Of a stretch of 64,000 bases of DNA, positions 1,084 to 59,370 are shown one piece after another (the first letter of the stretch is position 1; every line of letters starts with the position of its first letter). Source of the stretch: Cryobacterium glaciale (lineage in GTDB: Bacteria > Actinomycetota > Actinomycetes > Actinomycetales > Microbacteriaceae); the NCBI RefSeq assembly GCF_004402535.1, contig NZ_SOEY01000029.1, positions 22,175-86,174 of the forward strand, read 5' to 3'. The notes below the pieces were generated by a model. That model was not told the DNA's origin, did no database searches, and saw only the letters and a list, made by a program, of their open reading frames with translations. A program made the position numbers and the translations under genes.

Positions 1084-4000
1084 GTGAGCGAGCACCAGCA
1101 CAGTCCAGCCGGCGACAGCGTGCACCCGCAGTCCGTGCTCGCTGCAGGACACCTGGCCAGGCCGGCCCGCACCCTCGCCGACATCCTTGCGGAAACCGCG
1201 GCGCAGCATCCGGATGCACTGGCCATGGAAGATGCGGCGGGCACGATCAGCTACCGCGGCTTGCTGCGGCGCGTGCAGGCGCAGGCGACCGGGCTGAGCC
1301 TGGCCGGAGTACGCCGCGGCGACACCGTGGGCATTCGCATTCCCTCTGGCACCCGCGATCTGTATGTGTCGATTCTGGCCACCCTGTTCGTGGGCGCCGC
1401 TTACGTTCCGGTCGACGCCGACGACCCGGAGGAACGCGCCCGGCTGGTCTTCTCCGAGGCGCACGTGGTCGGCATCATCGGCGAGAATAGCGTGTTCGCG
1501 CCACGCGAGGCCCTCGACCTGCAGGCCTTGCAGGGTCGGCCGGTGCCGCCGCACGACGACCCGGCGCTGGTCTATCCGCTCGACAACATTCCCACGCCCG
1601 ACGACGACGCCTGGGTCATTTTCACCTCCGGATCGACCGGCGTGCCCAAGGGGGTCGCCGTCACCCACCGCTCGGCGGCCGCGTTCGTCGACGCCGAAGC
1701 CGGCCTGTTTCTGCGCGCCGAACCGATCGGAACCGGAGACCGCGTGCTGGCCGGGCTCTCGGTGGCCTTCGATGCGAGCTGCGAGGAAATGTGGCTGGCC
1801 TGGCGCAACGGCGCCTGCCTGGTGCCTGCCCCGCGCTCCCTCGTGCGCAGCGGCGCCGACCTCGGCCCCTGGCTGATCGCGCACGGCATCACCGTGGTCT
1901 CGACAGTGCCGACCCTCGCCGCCCTCTGGCCGGAGGAATCGCTCGAGGCCGTGCGCCTGCTGATCTTCGGCGGCGAGGCCTGCCCGCCCGAACTGGTCGC
2001 GCGCATCGCGACCCGCGGCCGGGAAGTGTGGAACACCTACGGGCCGACCGAAGCCACCGTCGTGGCTTGCGGTGCCCTCGTCGATGGCGTGGGCGAGATG
2101 CGCATCGGCCTGCCGCTCGACGGCTGGGACCTCGCCGTTGTCGATGCACACGGCGAGCGGGTCGCGGAGGGAGCGACCGGAGAGCTCATCATCGGCGGCG
2201 TCGGCTTGGCCCGCTACCTCGACGCCGCGAAGGACGCCGAGAAGTACGCGCCGCATCCGCAGCTCGGCTGGGACCGGGCCTATCGCAGCGGCGACCTCGT
2301 GCGGTTCGACCGGGTCGGCCTGGTCTTCGCCGGCCGTGCCGACGACCAGGTGAAGCTCGGCGGCCGGCGCATCGAACTCGGTGAAGTGGATGCCGCCCTC
2401 AACACTCTTCCCGGGGTGGCCGGCGGCGCCGCCGTGGTGCAGTCCACCCCCGCGGGCAACCATATTTTGGTCGGTTATATCGCCCTCACCAGCGCGGGCG
2501 CGCCGTTCGACCGACAGGCCGCCATCGTGAGGCTGCGCGAGGAGCTGCCGGCCGCGCTCGTGCCGCTGCTCGCCGTCGTCGACGCCCTGCCGACCCGCAC
2601 CTCGGGCAAGGTCGACCGGGCGGCGCTGCCGTGGCCACTGCCCCAATCGGCCGAGGAAACCGAGGCGCTGTCTCCGACGGCGGCGTGGCTGGCCGAGGCG
2701 TGGGCATCCATTTTGGGGGTGCCGGTCACCGGACCGGATGATGATTTCTTCGCCCAGGGCGGCGGGTCACTCTCGGCGGCGCAATTCGTGTCGGCCGTGC
2801 GTGCCCGCCACCCCGAAACGACCGTCGCCGACCTCTACGACCACCCGCGCATCGGGTCGCTCGCCGAGGAACTCGACGCCCGCACCCCCGTGACGCCGCC
2901 CGTGGTGCGACAAGTGCTGCCGACACCGGCTCGCAGCCAGTTCGCGCAGACGGTGCTCGGCATTCCGCTGCACGTGCTGAGCGGCGCGCGCTGGCTGGTC
3001 TACCTGGCCATCGCCAACAATCTGCTGAGCCTGGCCGGCGTGACCTTCGCCCCCACCCTGTCGTGGTGGTGGGTGGCACTCGGCTTCGTTCTGTTCGTGA
3101 CCCCGCCCGGGAAAATGCTCATCGCCGTCGTCGCAGCCCGACTGCTGCTGCACGACGTGCTGCCCGGCAACTACCCCCGCGGCGGCTCGGTGCACCTGCG
3201 GTTGTGGCTGGCCGAGCAGATCGCGCTGCTCGTCGACGCCGCGAGCCTCGCCGGCGCCCCCTGGATCAGCTATTACGCCAGGGCCCTCGGCGCGGAGATC
3301 GGCCCCGACGTCGACCTGCATTCGCTGCCGCCGGTGACCGGCCTGCTCACCATCGGCGCCCAAGCCTCGATCGAACCGGAGGTCGACCTGGCCGGGCACT
3401 GGATCGACGGTGACGTGCTGCGCATCGGCCACCTGCACGTCGGAGCCGACGCCCGCATCGGTTCCCGCAGCACCCTGCTCGGCGGGGCCCACGTGGGCAA
3501 CGGCGCCGAGATCGAACCCGGCGCCGCCGTCTCGTCCCGCGTGCCGGCGGGGGAGCGCTGGGCCGGTTCCCCGGCTCGCCGTGTCGGCTCGGCTCGCCGC
3601 CCGTGGCCGGCCGAACGGCCTGCAAGGGCCAGTCGCTGGCTCGGCGCCTTCGCCGCCGGCTCGGTCGCGATGACCGCCATTCCCACGATCGCCCTCGTGC
3701 TCGGCGCGGTGATCGTCGGCGGGCTCGTCGGCGACGCTGACACCCTCAGTGTCGCCGTGCTGCGTGCCGCCCTGATCATGCCGGTCGCCGTCATCGCCGG
3801 CGGCCTCGCCTACGCGCTGCTCGTGATCGGATTCGTGCGCATTCTCGGCGTCGGCCTCCGCGAGGGCTACTACCCCGTGCGCAGCCGCATCGGCTGGCAA
3901 GTTTGGATGACCGAACGCATCCTCGACGGCGCCCGCACCGTGCTGTTCCCGGTGTACGCGAGCCTGTTCACACCCACCTGGCTGCGGTTATTGGGAGCCA

Positions 4001-5049: not shown

Positions 5050-6378
5050 ATGGCCCAGACTGTGCAGACGACCTTCGGTTCGGCCAGCGCCGGCGACCCC
5101 TATATCCCCACCGGCGGCAACGGCGGCTACCTCGCTGAACACTACGACCTGAACCTGGACTACCGGGTGGCCACCAACCGGTTGAACGCGACCGCGACCA
5201 TCACCGCGCGGGCCCTCATGCGCCTCGACCGGATCAGTCTCGATTTCGCCGGGCTGAGCATGGAGAAGGTCACGGTGAACGGAGCGCGACCCGGCAAGGT
5301 CACGCACAGCGCCCGCAAACTCGTGATTTCGCTCGCCACGACGATTGAAGCCGGGGCGGAGTTCGAGGTGGTGGTGCGCTATCGCGGGGCGCCGCATCCG
5401 GTGCGCAGTAACTGGGGTGATGTCGGCTGGGAAGAACTCGATGACGGCGTGCTCGTCTCTGGACAGCCGTGCGGGGCAGCGTCCTGGTTTCCCTGCAACG
5501 ACCACCCGAGCAACAAGGCCAGTTATCGCATCACGATCGCCTGCGAATCGGGCTACACCGTGGTGTCGAACGGGGTTTTGTCGAACCGATCGAGCCGGTC
5601 GGGCCGCACCAGCTGGACCTTCGACGTGCGCGAGCCGATGGCGACCTACCTCGCCACAGTGCTGATCGGCCGCTACCGCCGCCGCGACCTGGCCGCCGCT
5701 CCGGTCGCCCACAGCCTGTACTTTCCGGCCCGGTTGGCGACCCGCGTCGGCACCGACTTCGCCCGCCTGACCGAGATGATCGCGTTCTTCGCCGACCGGT
5801 TCGGGCCATATCCGTTCGCGTCGTATTCGGTCGTGGTCACCGACGACGAGCTGGAGATTCCGCTCGAGGCGCACGGCCTGGCCGTGTTCGGCAGCAACCA
5901 CGTCGACGGAAATCACGGCAGCGACCGGCTGATCGCCCACGAACTGGCACACCAGTGGTACGGCAACAGCCTTACCGTGGCCCGTTGGCAGGATATCTGG
6001 CTGCAGGAGGGCTTCGCCTGCTACGCCGAATGGCTGTGGGAGGAGCAGCGCGGTGGGCGCACGGTCGACCAGCTGGCCGCCCTGCATCGCGGCAAGGTTC
6101 AGGCGCTGCCCCGCGACATCGTGGTCGGCGACCCCGGCCCGCACGACATGTTCGACGACCGCGTCTACAAACGCGGCGCGCTCGCCCTGCACGCCATTCG
6201 CAAATCGCTCGGCGATGAGGCCTTCTTTCCGGCCCTGCGCGCCTACACCGCGGCCCGGCGGCACGGGCACGTGTCGACCGACGACTTCGTGGAGTTCTTC
6301 GCCGAACACACCGGCAGCCGGGCGATCGGCGGTTTCGTCGCCCGCTGGGTGCAGCAGAGCGCGCTGCCGAGCCTCTAA
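5050..6378 (+). CDS. M1 family metallopeptidase (aminopeptidase-like)
   Basis: 442 residues. The gluzincin zinc site is complete: HELAH at 297-301 and the third ligand E320 in WLQEGF, 18 residues later. The N-terminal half (about 25-200) is the beta-sandwich seen in M1 enzymes. The usual GAMEN exopeptidase motif is replaced by LEAHG, as in the shorter actinobacterial M1 group, so true N-terminal aminopeptidase activity is less certain. There is no signal peptide, so it is probably cytoplasmic. It starts 18 bases after the synthetase stop, which suggests co-transcription; trimming of the peptide product is possible but speculative. The ribosome site before the ATG is weak. Confidence 0.88.
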   Translation: MAQTVQTTFGSASAGDPYIPTGGNGGYLAEHYDLNLDYRVATNRLNATATITARALMRLDRISLDFAGLSMEKVTVNGARPGKVTHSARKLVISLATTIEAGAEFEVVVRYRGAPHPVRSNWGDVGWEELDDGVLVSGQPCGAASWFPCNDHPSNKASYRITIACESGYTVVSNGVLSNRSSRSGRTSWTFDVREPMATYLATVLIGRYRRRDLAAAPVAHSLYFPARLATRVGTDFARLTEMIAFFADRFGPYPFASYSVVVTDDELEIPLEAHGLAVFGSNHVDGNHGSDRLIAHELAHQWYGNSLTVARWQDIWLQEGFACYAEWLWEEQRGGRTVDQLAALHRGKVQALPRDIVVGDPGPHDMFDDRVYKRGALALHAIRKSLGDEAFFPALRAYTAARRHGHVSTDDFVEFFAEHTGSRAIGGFVARWVQQSALPSL

Positions 6379-6705
6379 GCGGTCGGTACGAGAGGTGGGT
6401 TGCGCGGGTGGTGCGCCGGTACGCGGGTGGTGCGCCGGTACGCGGGAGTTGAGCCGGTGTGCGGGAGTTCGACGTCGGGCTGCTTCGGCCTGATCGGTGG
6501 GCTGCGCGTGTGGTGCGCCGGTACGCGGGAATTCCACCGGAGGGCTGGCCTCACGGGGGCGGGCCACGCGGGAGTTGCGCCGATACCGCGGGGGTTCGGG
6601 CGCGGCCATAACTCCAGCGCGACGCGACGGGCTGGACCTGCGCCAGTGCGCGGGAGTTCCGCCTCGCACGCAGCGGCGAAACTCCCGCGCGGCGTGAAAC
6701 GGATG
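6379..6705. repeat. GC-rich GCGGGAGTT repeat array, copy 1
   Basis: No gene. The stretch is built from degenerate copies of the words GTACGCGGGTGGTGCGCCG and GCGCGGGAGTT in both orientations. Its right end (6629-6705) matches 8163-8240 base for base over most of about 77 positions, in the same orientation, so the two form direct repeats around the nuclease gene between them. Within this unit GCGCGGGAGTT and AACTCCCGCGC form an 11-bp hairpin arm pair. The space from 6706 to 6869 holds nothing else I can recognise. Confidence 0.8.
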
Positions 6706-6869
6706 GCGGCGAGCGGCAGCGAAACCGGTTGGGGGCAGGCATCCGTCGTGTGAAGCGCGCCTGCGTGGCGCACCCGTAATCCTCCTCCACCGCGAGCCGT
6801 AAGGCTGGTTTGTACACGAGAAAGGCGAACGATCGCGCGCGGCCCGCGCCGTTCGGACAATCTGGCTCC

Positions 6870-7904
6870 ATGACTCGCTCCGGCTCCGATCCCAGCGGCA
6901 GTAACCTCTCCCGAATAGGCACGCCTTCCGATCCCAGCGACGCGATCATCCTCGCATCTGACCTCGGCAACGCTTTCGGTGTCGATTTTCGTCTGCGCCG
7001 CGAATCGTCGCGCGGTCGACTTCAGCGGGTGAGCCGTGGCCTGTACTACCCCAGCGCCCGCTGGGAACAATTGCGCGACGACCAGCGCTACCTGATCCGG
7101 GTGCGCGGCGCAGCCCTCACTCGCCGCGGTCAGGTGGTGCTCTGCCACCAGTCGGCCGCCGTGCTCTGGGGGTTGCCGATGCTCGTCGGCTGGCCGAGCG
7201 ACGTGCACCTGCTCATTGAACGGGCCACGGGTGGACGCTCGGATCCGGGCATTCGCCGCCATGCCCTCGGCGTGGATGCCCGCGACGTCACGACCATCGA
7301 CGGACTATCCGTGACGACGATCGAGCGGACGGTGGTCGATCTGGCCGCAACCCTCGATTTAAAGTCCGCCGTGGCATTGGTCGACCGCGCGCTCTATCAG
7401 GACCGATTCGGACGCACCCCCACGCTCACCACGAAGGCCGCGCTCCTCGCCACTGTCGAACGGATGCTGCCCTTCCGCGGTTCGCGACGCGCCCGCGCGA
7501 TCATCCAGTTCGCGACGCATCTCTCCGGTTCGCCAGCAGAGTCGTCCAGCCGGGTGAACATGGCCCTGAGCGGATTTCCGGAGCCGGAATTGCAGCATCT
7601 GTTTGTCGTCGACGGCAAGGAGCGTGAAAGTGACTTCTACTGGCTCGAGATCGACGGCGTGGGGGAGTGCGACGGAAAGGACAAATACTTCACCCCGGAC
7701 TATCTGGCCGGCCGTTCCCCCGAACAGCTGCACTACGACGAGAAGCTTCGGGAAGACGGTATTCGGCGCCAAGTGCACGGTTTCACCCGCTGGCCGGCCT
7801 CGGTCGGGATGAGCCAGTATCCCCTGCGTCGGCGACTACTCGAGCTCGGATTGACGCCCGGCCCCCAGCGCGTCTTGCGCGGCCTCGAACACCCAAAATC
7901 ATAG
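6870..7904 (+). CDS. AbiEi-like winged helix plus Vsr/DUF559-type nuclease domain protein
   Basis: 344 residues. The N-terminal third resembles the winged-helix segment of the actinobacterial AbiEi antitoxin-like family (RLQRVSRGLYYP, then CHQSAAVLWGLP). The last 130 residues look like a Vsr/DUF559 PD-(D/E)xK nuclease: E in ESSSR, D in ESDFYW, and E-x-D-G-K in VGECDGKDKY. These acidic residues are present, so it may be active. No AbiEii-like toxin gene is adjacent, so a toxin-antitoxin role is unsupported. The gene stands alone between two arrays of the same GC-rich repeat. An upstream TTG at 6810 in frame could also start it; I prefer ATG 6870, although neither has a strong ribosome site. 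Confidence 0.78.
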   Translation: MTRSGSDPSGSNLSRIGTPSDPSDAIILASDLGNAFGVDFRLRRESSRGRLQRVSRGLYYPSARWEQLRDDQRYLIRVRGAALTRRGQVVLCHQSAAVLWGLPMLVGWPSDVHLLIERATGGRSDPGIRRHALGVDARDVTTIDGLSVTTIERTVVDLAATLDLKSAVALVDRALYQDRFGRTPTLTTKAALLATVERMLPFRGSRRARAIIQFATHLSGSPAESSSRVNMALSGFPEPELQHLFVVDGKERESDFYWLEIDGVGECDGKDKYFTPDYLAGRSPEQLHYDEKLREDGIRRQVHGFTRWPASVGMSQYPLRRRLLELGLTPGPQRVLRGLEHPKS

Positions 7905-8038
7905 CCGGGGTGGGTGCGCGGCCTACTCAGCGCCTTGGGCGGGTTGCCTGCGTCGTCTGCTGGGCGCGCCGGCCCCGATAAGACGAAAGCCGCGCTGGGC
8001 TGAGTTCCGACGGCTCGGTGGCAGCGGGGAAGCAGGTC

Positions 8039-8240
8039 GCGCTGGACTTGCGCCAGTGCGCGGGAGTTCCGGTTTGGCCAGTACTCCCGCGCTACTCGTG
8101 GCGCTGGACCTGCGCCAGTGCGCGGGAGTTCCGGTTTGGCCAGTACTCCCGCGCTACTCGTGGCGCTGGACCTGCGCCAGTGCGCGGGAGTTGCGCCTCC
8201 CGCGCAGCGGCACAACTCCCGCGGCAGCGTGAAGGGGATG
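8039..8240. repeat. 62-base tandem repeat of the GCGGGAGTT family, copy 2
   Basis: Two nearly identical 62-base units begin at 8039 and 8101, and a third partial unit begins at 8163. Each unit contains GCGCCAGTGCGCGGGAGTT and the inverted ACTCCCGCGC, giving a 10-bp hairpin. The third unit continues into a sequence (to 8240) matching 6629-6705. The array separates the nuclease gene from the convergent PPTase gene. Nothing else is seen between 7905 and 8038. Confidence 0.9.
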
Positions 8241-8254
8241 ACCGCCGCCCCGCT

Positions 8255-8869
8255 TTATGGTTCGGGGCGCAGTTCGGTGCTGGGCGCTGTCGCGCTGAGC
8301 ACGGCCACCGTGCCGACCAGGCCGGGGCCCGCATCGAAGTTCGCCAGGTGCACCTCGCTTAGGTCAAGGGTCGCGGTCGGCCAGCCCAGCAGAACGGATG
8401 CTCCCCCCGCGCCGAACCCCACGGTCACCGCCCGCGGATCCACGCGCAACCCCTCGCCCGAGAGCTTGAGCACCGCTTCCTTGGCCGTCCAGTGGGTCGC
8501 ACGCGCCCGGTCCTGCTCGTCGACGGGGAGCGCGTGCAGCGCCGTCCGCTCGGCAGCGTTGAACGCGACATCGTCGAACCCGGCCTGGGCGACCGCGCTG
8601 ACACTCTCAATGTCGACGCCGATCGGCCCGACCAGCGACACCGCCACGACCACGGCCGTGCCGGCCCTGCTCAGGCTCAGGTGCACTCCGTGCGGCGAGA
8701 GCACTCGCGGGCGGCCGTGACAACCGCCGCAGTGCTCGCAGTGCTGCTCGATGGCGACCGGGCCCCGCTCCGGACAGACCAGGGCGACAGCGGCGGCGAG
8801 TCGTAGCCGGTCGGTCTGGGGGAGCGGCGCGCGCGGTGCCAGAAAGAGGGAGACATCCGTTTGCGTCAC
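8255..8869 (-). CDS. 4'-phosphopantetheinyl transferase superfamily protein
   Basis: 204 residues, the size of Sfp-type enzymes. Signature blocks are present: CEHCGGCHGRP (about 44-54), the Mg-binding GVDIE (D86, E88), and WTAKEAVLKLSGEG (127-140). It would transfer phosphopantetheine from CoA to a carrier-domain serine. The only carrier domain visible in the window is S562 of the Pls/PosA-type synthetase 3 kb away, so that is the natural partner; this is inference from proximity. The start is GTG with CAAGG upstream. Confidence 0.9.
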   Translation of the reverse strand: MTQTDVSLFLAPRAPLPQTDRLRLAAAVALVCPERGPVAIEQHCEHCGGCHGRPRVLSPHGVHLSLSRAGTAVVVAVSLVGPIGVDIESVSAVAQAGFDDVAFNAAERTALHALPVDEQDRARATHWTAKEAVLKLSGEGLRVDPRAVTVGFGAGGASVLLGWPTATLDLSEVHLANFDAGPGLVGTVAVLSATAPSTELRPEP

Positions 8870-48565: not shown

Positions 48566-49423
48566 CTACGAGCGTGCGCCGCGGTTAGCCAGCGCAGCGC
48601 GCACTCGGCGCAGGAGCTCCTGCCCGCCGTATGTGAGGTCGTCGTCGGTAATGCGCACCATGCGCCAGTTCTGGTCTTCGACCCGCTCGCGTCGGGTGAT
48701 GTCTTTACGGAATTGCTTTTGGTCAGTGCGGTGACCGTCGCCCTCATACTCGACGCAGACCCGAAAGCGCGGCCAGGCCAGGTCGACGCGGGCCACAAAA
48801 TAGCCGTCGGAGTCCCGAATAACAAAATTGACGACGGGTTCTGGAATGCCGTCATCCACGATAAACAGGCGTGTCCTGGTTTCCTGCGGCGAATCGACCG
48901 CGGCGCGCGCGAGACTCGCGGCTTCCCGCAGGGCGCGGCATCCGCGTCGTCCGGTGAGTTCCGCCGTGACCGCGCACAACTCGTCGGGCGTGTGCATCGG
49001 ATCTCGACCCCCGCAGAGATAATCCGCAGCCGCGACGAGTTCGACTCGTGTGAGCATCGGGGCGACATCGATCCAGGTGTGCAGCGGCGACGTCACACGA
49101 AGGCCCCCGACCCGGCGGATGTCGAGCACGTCGCGCTTATGCCCGACGATTCCCAGCATCTGCGGAGCCCGGGCGCCCGCCGGCACGCTGACGTGCAGGT
49201 GCCGGTCTGCTTCGAGCCGATGAGGCAACCACAGACCCTGAACGATGCCCGCGGTCGCGTGGCTGAAAGCGTGAGCCGCGGGCATCCGCTCTGAATAGGC
49301 CTTCGCCAGCTCGATAACGGATGCCGGCCGCGTTCCGTCAGCGCGCAGGCGGCGATAGGACAGGGTGGCACGATCATGAGATGTCGACATGCAGGGATCA
49401 TGCAGCGAATCGGGATCGCGCAT
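48566..49423 (-). CDS. DUF559/Vsr-like endonuclease domain protein
   Basis: 285 residues from ATG 49423; ATG 49390 and 49450 are alternatives and none has a clear ribosome site. The N-terminal half resembles the shortened winged-helix part of the actinobacterial AbiEi-like proteins (HAFSHATAGIVQGLWLP). The C-terminal 110 residues look like a Vsr/DUF559 nuclease: E in SPQETRTRL, D in ARVDLAWP, and EYEGDGHR, followed by the DNA-repair-like RRERVEDQNWRMVRI. The expected acidic residues are present. It is one of two such proteins in the window, and like the other it has matching hairpin repeats on both sides. Confidence 0.75.
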   Translation of the reverse strand: MRDPDSLHDPCMSTSHDRATLSYRRLRADGTRPASVIELAKAYSERMPAAHAFSHATAGIVQGLWLPHRLEADRHLHVSVPAGARAPQMLGIVGHKRDVLDIRRVGGLRVTSPLHTWIDVAPMLTRVELVAAADYLCGGRDPMHTPDELCAVTAELTGRRGCRALREAASLARAAVDSPQETRTRLFIVDDGIPEPVVNFVIRDSDGYFVARVDLAWPRFRVCVEYEGDGHRTDQKQFRKDITRRERVEDQNWRMVRITDDDLTYGGQELLRRVRAALANRGARS

Positions 49424-58965: not shown

Positions 58966-59084
58966 GGGGCTCCCGTTTTGTCGTGGTTCTTCATCCAACC
59001 GGTTCGGCCGGGGGAAGTCACGTGCGGGCTCCGGCGCCGGGCGGATTCACGGCTGGCCCGACGCTGGCGAGAGCTGCGATTTCA

Positions 59085-59370
59085 CTTTGCGCGGGACCTC
59101 CGCCAGTGCGCGGGAGGCGCAACTCCCGCGCACTGGCGCAGGTCTAGCCCCACGCGCAGCGCGGGAGTACTGGCCAGGCCCGAACCCCCGCGCACTGGCG
59201 CAACCCCCGCGCAGCGTGCTCACCCAGCACCGCCCCGATGCCCGAACTCCCGCTTACTGGCGCAAGTCCCGCGCAGCGTGTCACGGCCGCACGGCTGGCT
59301 GCCGTCGGCACTCCCGCGTACTGGCGCAACTCCTGCGTACTGGCGCAGCCCCCGCGCGCCGCGGCACAGT
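59085..59370. repeat. GC-rich GCGGGAGTT repeat array, copy 3
   Basis: The same words as the arrays at 6.4 and 8.0 kb, mostly inverted (AACTCCCGCGCACTGGCGC). It includes a perfect 16-bp hairpin, 59101-59116 with 59123-59138, and then five or six degenerate CCCGCGYACTGGCGCAA units. No gene lies between 58966 and 59388. Confidence 0.85.

Follow-up and report, generated by a model that had tools for sequence, protein, structure and literature searches.

What does a solitary nuclease-like gene do with the palindromic repeats that lie on both sides of it? The question is raised by a locus in a 64-kb stretch of Cryobacterium glaciale DNA (genome G000, contig 31), the whole of which is termed the window. 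The answer considered probable here is that the gene encodes one of a group of repeat-associated nucleases, each recognizing its cognate palindrome and either spreading or maintaining it, while the gene itself stays put, in a manner resembling the RAYT/REP systems and with an unrelated enzyme.

The locus, its repeat arrays, and the encoded protein

The locus is bounded on the left by an M1 peptidase gene (5050-6378, forward strand) and on the right by a 4'-phosphopantetheinyl transferase (PPTase) gene (8255-8869, reverse strand), the first assigned with Pfam and the second with Pfam ACPS, and both placed by synteny in the clade genomes. Between them lie an upstream array of a palindromic repeat (6399-6705, with a complete unit at 6629-6705), a solitary gene encoding 344 amino acids (6870-7904, forward strand), and a downstream array (8036-8240) consisting of two shorter hairpin units (8039-8093 and 8101-8155) and a complete unit (8163-8240). 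Both arrays were delineated by repeat search, alignment, and match to a 77-nt query. The two complete units, in direct orientation, agree at 68 of 77 aligned positions and the open reading frame is intact, in agreement with the original prediction of a nuclease gene lying between repeat arrays. The word GCGCGGGAGTT occurs six times in the 64-kb window compared with 0.12 copies expected; the two gene-flanking arrays account for five copies, and the remaining copy belongs to a third array of this family, dispersed at a distance from the gene (59080-59357) and also matched by the 77-nt query. The array spacings in the window are 19 and 62 nt.

The repeat is a nested palindrome of about 62 nt, and 20 aligned copies give a consensus plan of GCGCKGGA-nnn-GCGCC-nnn-GCGCGGGA, a short loop, and then the reverse complement. 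Each complete unit in the window is itself a near-palindrome, so that the flanking copies match in both orientations, as the Cryobacterium units are observed to do. DNA folding gives a z value of -6.65 for the best-folding copy tried and values of -2.4 to -4.0 for three window units; one of the shorter downstream units was among the sequences folded, and a poorly chosen stretch among the six (L034:1100-1170) was left out of account. Stem covariation adds little support, with 91.3% of cells paired compared with 90.7% in shuffles and with slid structures pairing far less. A known RNA family was considered as the identity of the repeats and rejected, with no Rfam match at the gathering score for six loci.

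AbiEi models fit the N-terminal half of the protein (PADLOC, 1.2e-17, with best stretches at 41-224, 41-175, and 42-181), bearing out the AbiEi-like N terminus that had been proposed, and Pfam AbiEi_4 matches residues 29-60 below its cut-off only. With the predicted helices and strands these matches place an AbiEi-like region, the probable DNA-binding part, at approximately residues 22-177 (6933-7400, forward strand). The AlphaFold model of the protein has a pLDDT of 84.9, and the only Foldseek matches of the whole model at E <= 0.001 are AbiEi (6y8q, E 3.4e-6) and Rv2827c (1zel), with which it has the N-terminal winged helix and the AbiEi fold in common. NCBIfam gives no match for the window protein, and the gene matches no transposase family in Pfam or NCBIfam. 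The AbiE type IV toxin-antitoxin systems pair a winged-helix antitoxin with an adjacent AbiEii nucleotidyltransferase toxin; here the winged helix is present, but no AbiEii neighbor is found, an additional nuclease-like domain is attached, and repeats both flank the gene and are dispersed.

That additional domain occupies approximately residues 205-313 (7482-7808, forward strand). All 28 aligned homologs (alignment A1) carry Glu-224, Asp-255, Glu-266, Asp-268, Lys-272, Glu-291, Lys-292, and Glu-295, invariant residues forming a pattern E...D...ExDGxxK...EKxRE that we read as a PD-(D/E)XK-like active-site pattern. The Foldseek matches of this half are weak and include Vsr (1vsr), TnsA, R2 endonuclease, and I-Bth0305I, mixed with unrelated folds and none significant. 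The nuclease domain modeled alone has a pLDDT of 68 and no Foldseek match at E <= 0.001, a search of solved structures with a sequence profile returned no match, and DUF559 is matched in 1 of 28 members (E 0.098). The arrangement of acidic residues and lysine (the first five invariant positions above) is a feature in common with Vsr, DUF559, TnsA, and I-Bth0305I, presumably all PD-(D/E)XK nucleases, some of which are among the weak fold matches; the difference is that the window protein has no confident match to any of these families. Motif and weak fold matches suggest a PD-(D/E)XK-like nuclease half, and the original "Vsr-like" label is plausible.

The mean dN/dS over 15 pairs among six orthologs is 0.126, similar to the 0.127 of the neighboring M1 peptidase (10 pairs). 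The gene is under purifying selection, indicating that the protein has retained its function even though it is absent from 11 of 17 clade genomes. Elsewhere in the window, 48818-49267 (G000:C31:70992-71441, locus L036) gives a weak and incomplete match to the nuclease protein (E 2.7e-6) and is perhaps a distant or decayed paralog.

With the window protein as the query, phage or plasmid cargo was rejected as an explanation of the gene. No match is present in 50,697 phage records, and 72,556 plasmid records contain three, all from one Tsukamurella strain and adjoining tatB, pdxS, and polyprenyl synthetase genes, so that these plasmid-labelled records carry housekeeping genes. The family looks chromosomal. 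The placement of AbiEi among the PADLOC defense models could suggest a fusion of an AbiEi-type antitoxin and a nuclease toxin, marked or sequestered by the repeats, but the neighbors are a peptidase and a phosphopantetheinyl transferase rather than an AbiEii toxin and no phage record matches the window protein, leaving a defense or toxin role extremely unlikely.

Flanking repeats and protein subfamilies

At each homolog the 500 bp upstream and the 500 bp downstream were compared with one another and a match was counted at E <= 1e-6. Matching repeats occur both upstream and downstream at 70 of 85 unique homolog loci, as had been predicted for most gene copies in relatives, and a clear repeat pair is absent at 15. 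The pairs are found at 29 of 34 unique Cryobacterium loci (32 of 37 before L037-L039, with proteins 84-86% identical to that of the window, were removed as duplicates of the G010, G018, and G015 loci), at 25 of 28 testable loci elsewhere in the class (a 29th was of insufficient length; these loci, all from other genera, are the best-scoring matches and are biased to near relatives of the query), at 14 of 20 hand-picked further Cryobacterium paralogs, and at 2 of 3 Tsukamurella loci; the orthologs among all these loci are not independent events. The flank matches of the class set are 41-143 nt in length, mostly 60-100 nt, with identity up to 96%, and 21 of 25 loci have their best match in inverted orientation. 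A family match is present in 112 of 148 sampled genomes of the class. Solitary proteins with an AbiEi winged helix and a PD-(D/E)XK-like half are common across the class, and the majority have an individual palindromic repeat as a partner.

Such pairs could alternatively be REP or terminator hairpins of the ordinary kind, collected between genes and only incidentally close to this gene family. The same comparison applied to controls gives 0 of 349 at E <= 1e-6 (random window placements 0/136, PPTase loci 0/15, placements in relatives 0/133, and shuffles of the same flanks 0/65) and 15, 0, 5, and 4, respectively, for window placements, PPTase loci, relatives, and shuffles at the looser E <= 1e-3, with the placement controls being mostly coding DNA and the 15 PPTase loci the only control genes flanked by intergenic sequence. 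That composition leaves some room for incidental hairpins, as does a different hairpin-like sequence seen by eye in G009 at one orthologous position. Against them stand the empty controls, the failure to find a RAYT in 57 Cryobacterium genomes or an Rfam match in the six loci, and the relationship between repeat type and protein subfamily.

This relationship was examined over 68 of 83 loci, those with repeats, counting two repeats as similar at 30 bits or more. Where the proteins are at least 75% identical, repeats are similar in 92% of 73 pairs; the value is 71% of 121 pairs at 60-75%, and, between genomes, in 30% of 178 pairs at 50-60% and in a fraction that rounds to 0.00 (at least two pairs) of 1890 pairs below 50%. 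Paralog pairs within one genome have matching repeats in 0 of 16 cases. The repeat type goes with the protein subfamily and not with the species. As orthologs are often at a common locus, shared ancestry explains part of this correlation; the contrast between paralogs of one genome is not explained by it. Unrelated hairpins, already disfavored, are a very unlikely explanation, and the 68 loci with naturally matched pairs of protein and repeat make recognition and copying directly testable.

Dispersed copies and the history of the locus

In the genomes where they were looked for, the repeats are scattered as singles, arrays, or inverted pairs. The 77-nt query has 34 matches in its own genome and 22-46 in five other genomes with a close ortholog, these counts including both orientations of the palindrome and coming from a limited number of scored candidates. 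A second family of the same genome, found beside the paralog at L034, has 31 matches. The L034-type repeat has no copies in the 64-kb window and forms arrays on L077 (G078:C15) at approximately 25-220 and 2710-3125. Ten genomes of the class all have a member of the protein family f38, and when a terminal sequence from the gene unit of G135 is the query the matches number 41 in G135, 57 in G118, 33 in G166, 28 in G151, 9 in G220, 2 in G189, and 1 in G200, with none in the remaining three (G210, G178, and G097).

In G135, 12 of 19 hand-picked dispersed sites, seven of which were chosen since a pair was already visible, are inverted pairs of 173-216 bp. Their outer ends resemble those of the 1248-bp gene unit, the common ends being of the type CGGAATGATCA...TGATCATTCCG, and the pairs are similar in appearance to REPIN doublets or MITEs. 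As DNA, the G135 end folds no better than shuffles do (z -0.35). The flanks of five of the 12 pairs (L261-L265) are mutually similar, and these five may be copies of, or lie inside, one larger repeated unit.

The position of the upstream copies, mostly 100-300 bp ahead of the gene, would be consistent with an operator model in which the gene is autorepressed by the winged helix through the palindromes, the other copies serving as extra operators, decoys, or a regulon and the nuclease half having some other job. AbiEi itself is described as a winged-helix autorepressor with two inverted repeats, IR1 and IR2, in its promoter region (PMC3985639). Autorepression of this type, from which the recognition half may derive, is the chief competing explanation. 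It is unlikely: a matching copy lies downstream as well at the 70 loci with flanking pairs, the dispersed copies in G135 are inverted pairs ending like the gene unit, the array size varies among orthologs, and the active-site-like residues are invariant.

The number of repeats largely follows the gene. Within a clade of 17 genomes the 77-nt query finds 34, 22, 46, 30, 41, and 34 copies where the gene is present and 21, 22, 27, 18, 14, 8, 6, 1, 0, 0, and 0 where it is absent (one-sided p = 0.0009), and over all 57 genomes, where the median is 5 among the 51 without a close ortholog, p = 0.0001, in tests that ignore relatedness and with the carriers scattered over the tree. Exact-word counts are 13-55 in five genomes with a close ortholog, with a median of 4 and a maximum of 16 in 32 genomes without one. 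The link between repeat count and gene foreseen in the original prediction is thus present. Its corollary, that genomes without the gene are poor in repeats, agrees with the low medians and fails for G067 (49 copies), G003 (34), G063 (27), and G036 (22) by the 77-nt query; of these, G067 and G003 are not clade members and have matches of lower similarity. Copies of the second family occur in 13 of 14 genomes that carry an ortholog of at least 75% identity compared with 4 of 43 that do not (p = 9e-10), a difference that fades inside the clade (p = 0.15), with G010 (two copies) and G032 (none) as exceptions despite the gene. Between lineages gene and repeats are strongly associated; inside a lineage the association is imperfect.

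Array, gene, and array are found together at the locus in 6 of 17 clade genomes, and all six with a close ortholog have the gene at this one common locus (G078 being judged from the CorA side only). Six more (G032, G009, G068, G013, G036, and G074) have an empty locus with neither gene nor repeat and with the neighboring genes 3-25 bp apart, as predicted for loci lacking the gene; four others (G035, G014, G063, and G077, the last at a contig end) lack the gene but retain an array or unit, and half a unit remains in G029, so that this prediction describes part of the clade. A five-gene tree places G009 and G032 as the sister group of G010 (support 99.8/100, but 81 in a smaller two-gene tree), with G020 branching next. 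G010 and G020 have the full repeat in common at six of nine alignable sites; at two others the repeat is partial or fragmentary, and at one it is absent. G009 has no genome-wide match and no repeat at five alignable sites, where other intergenic sequence is present in place of an empty site, and from these five sites a clean insertion boundary of the Cryobacterium repeats was not obtained. The simplest history is a loss of both gene and repeats on the G009/G032 branch.

The existence of Cryobacterium sites with and without the unit, and the ends common to the G135 gene unit and its short pairs, would fit an ordinary autonomous transposon, with the gene and its terminal repeats mobile and the short inverted pairs as non-autonomous derivatives. 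Transposon and MITE pairs of this sort include IS630 and the Correia elements (PMC2817692), and the short inverted-repeat elements with gene-unit-like ends in G135 are the point of likeness. The differences are that no transposase family is matched in Pfam or NCBIfam, that the target-site duplication of DDE-type transposons is absent from seven G135 elements (the direct flank match averages 1.86 nt compared with 1.90 nt in mismatched flanks), and that no movement of the gene itself was seen, all six clade carriers having it at one locus (G078 by one side only). The scarcity of the window protein in mobile-element records, none from phages and only the three plasmid-labelled ones, also argues against a transposon, which is improbable. 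In the clade studied the gene acts as a resident and not as a hopping element.

A new position for the gene in G078 was considered and found to be wrong, as the PPTase gene is missing and the CorA side is unchanged. The best genome-wide match to the PPTase ortholog in G078 is 39%, and long repeat arrays flank the gene there (L077, G078:C15, 15251-17499). The repeats may have promoted the PPTase deletion in this genome.

Relation to RAYT/REP systems

RAYT/REP/REPIN systems consist of a single gene between palindromic repeats, copies of which are also dispersed singly, in arrays, and as inverted doublets (PMC2817692, PMC3116915). The present system resembles them in the flanked single gene, the dispersed and mostly abundant cognate repeats, the pairing of repeat type with enzyme type, and a seemingly vertical inheritance of the gene in the clade studied. 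The enzyme differs: RAYTs are Y1/HUH tyrosine transposases (PF01797), whereas an AbiEi-like helix and a PD-(D/E)XK-like half are present here. PF01797 has no Pfam match in the window protein, consistent with the proposal of a RAYT-like layout around a protein that is not a RAYT, and is found in 0 of 57 Cryobacterium genomes by a search that was positive in 5 of 14 control genomes. A RAYT elsewhere in the genome as the mover of the repeats was therefore rejected, and the flanked nuclease is the strongest candidate found for this role. The units here are about 60-100 nt, and known REPs are described with GTAG/CGTC tags (PMC3733652).

The system seems to work like RAYT/REP without being a member, and its novelty is in an enzyme family and active site unrelated to the known kind and not in the layout. 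In the available text of a further study, REP counts are given for some Actinomycetota with no mention of a RAYT or transposase (PMC12306157). The accessible part of the open literature, with subscription journals and preprints outside it, yielded no report linking AbiEi, DUF559, or Vsr-type proteins to palindromic repeats, and the few annotated family members encountered are named AbiEi-type or hypothetical.

In the mechanism favored here, the winged helix would recognize and bind the cognate palindrome and the nuclease half would nick or cut it, perhaps as a hairpin or cruciform. Replication or repair would then copy the repeat to new places or keep existing copies alike, the gene remaining in place while the repeats spread. 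We lean, by a small measure, toward the broader proposal of a separate actinomycete class of repeat spreading, independent of RAYT/REP, in which a nuclease and not a transposase copies its own palindromes and which comprises many palindrome-specific subfamilies, several per genome. If true, this would provide a function for a large actinobacterial protein family, explain the origin of some GC-rich actinobacterial palindromes, and mean that systems of a gene plus a cognate palindrome have had several origins, involving enzymes that are not related.

Judged by eye, a sequence similar to the left end of an insertion sequence, presumably of IS3 type, adjoins palindromic repeats of this kind at three sites: one is in G015 (L039:7160-7240, with the same locus in L152) and two are at contig ends of the C. 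glaciale genome itself (C25, L006, and C35, L027). REPs are known targets of insertion sequences, and by analogy an insertion sequence may target these repeats.
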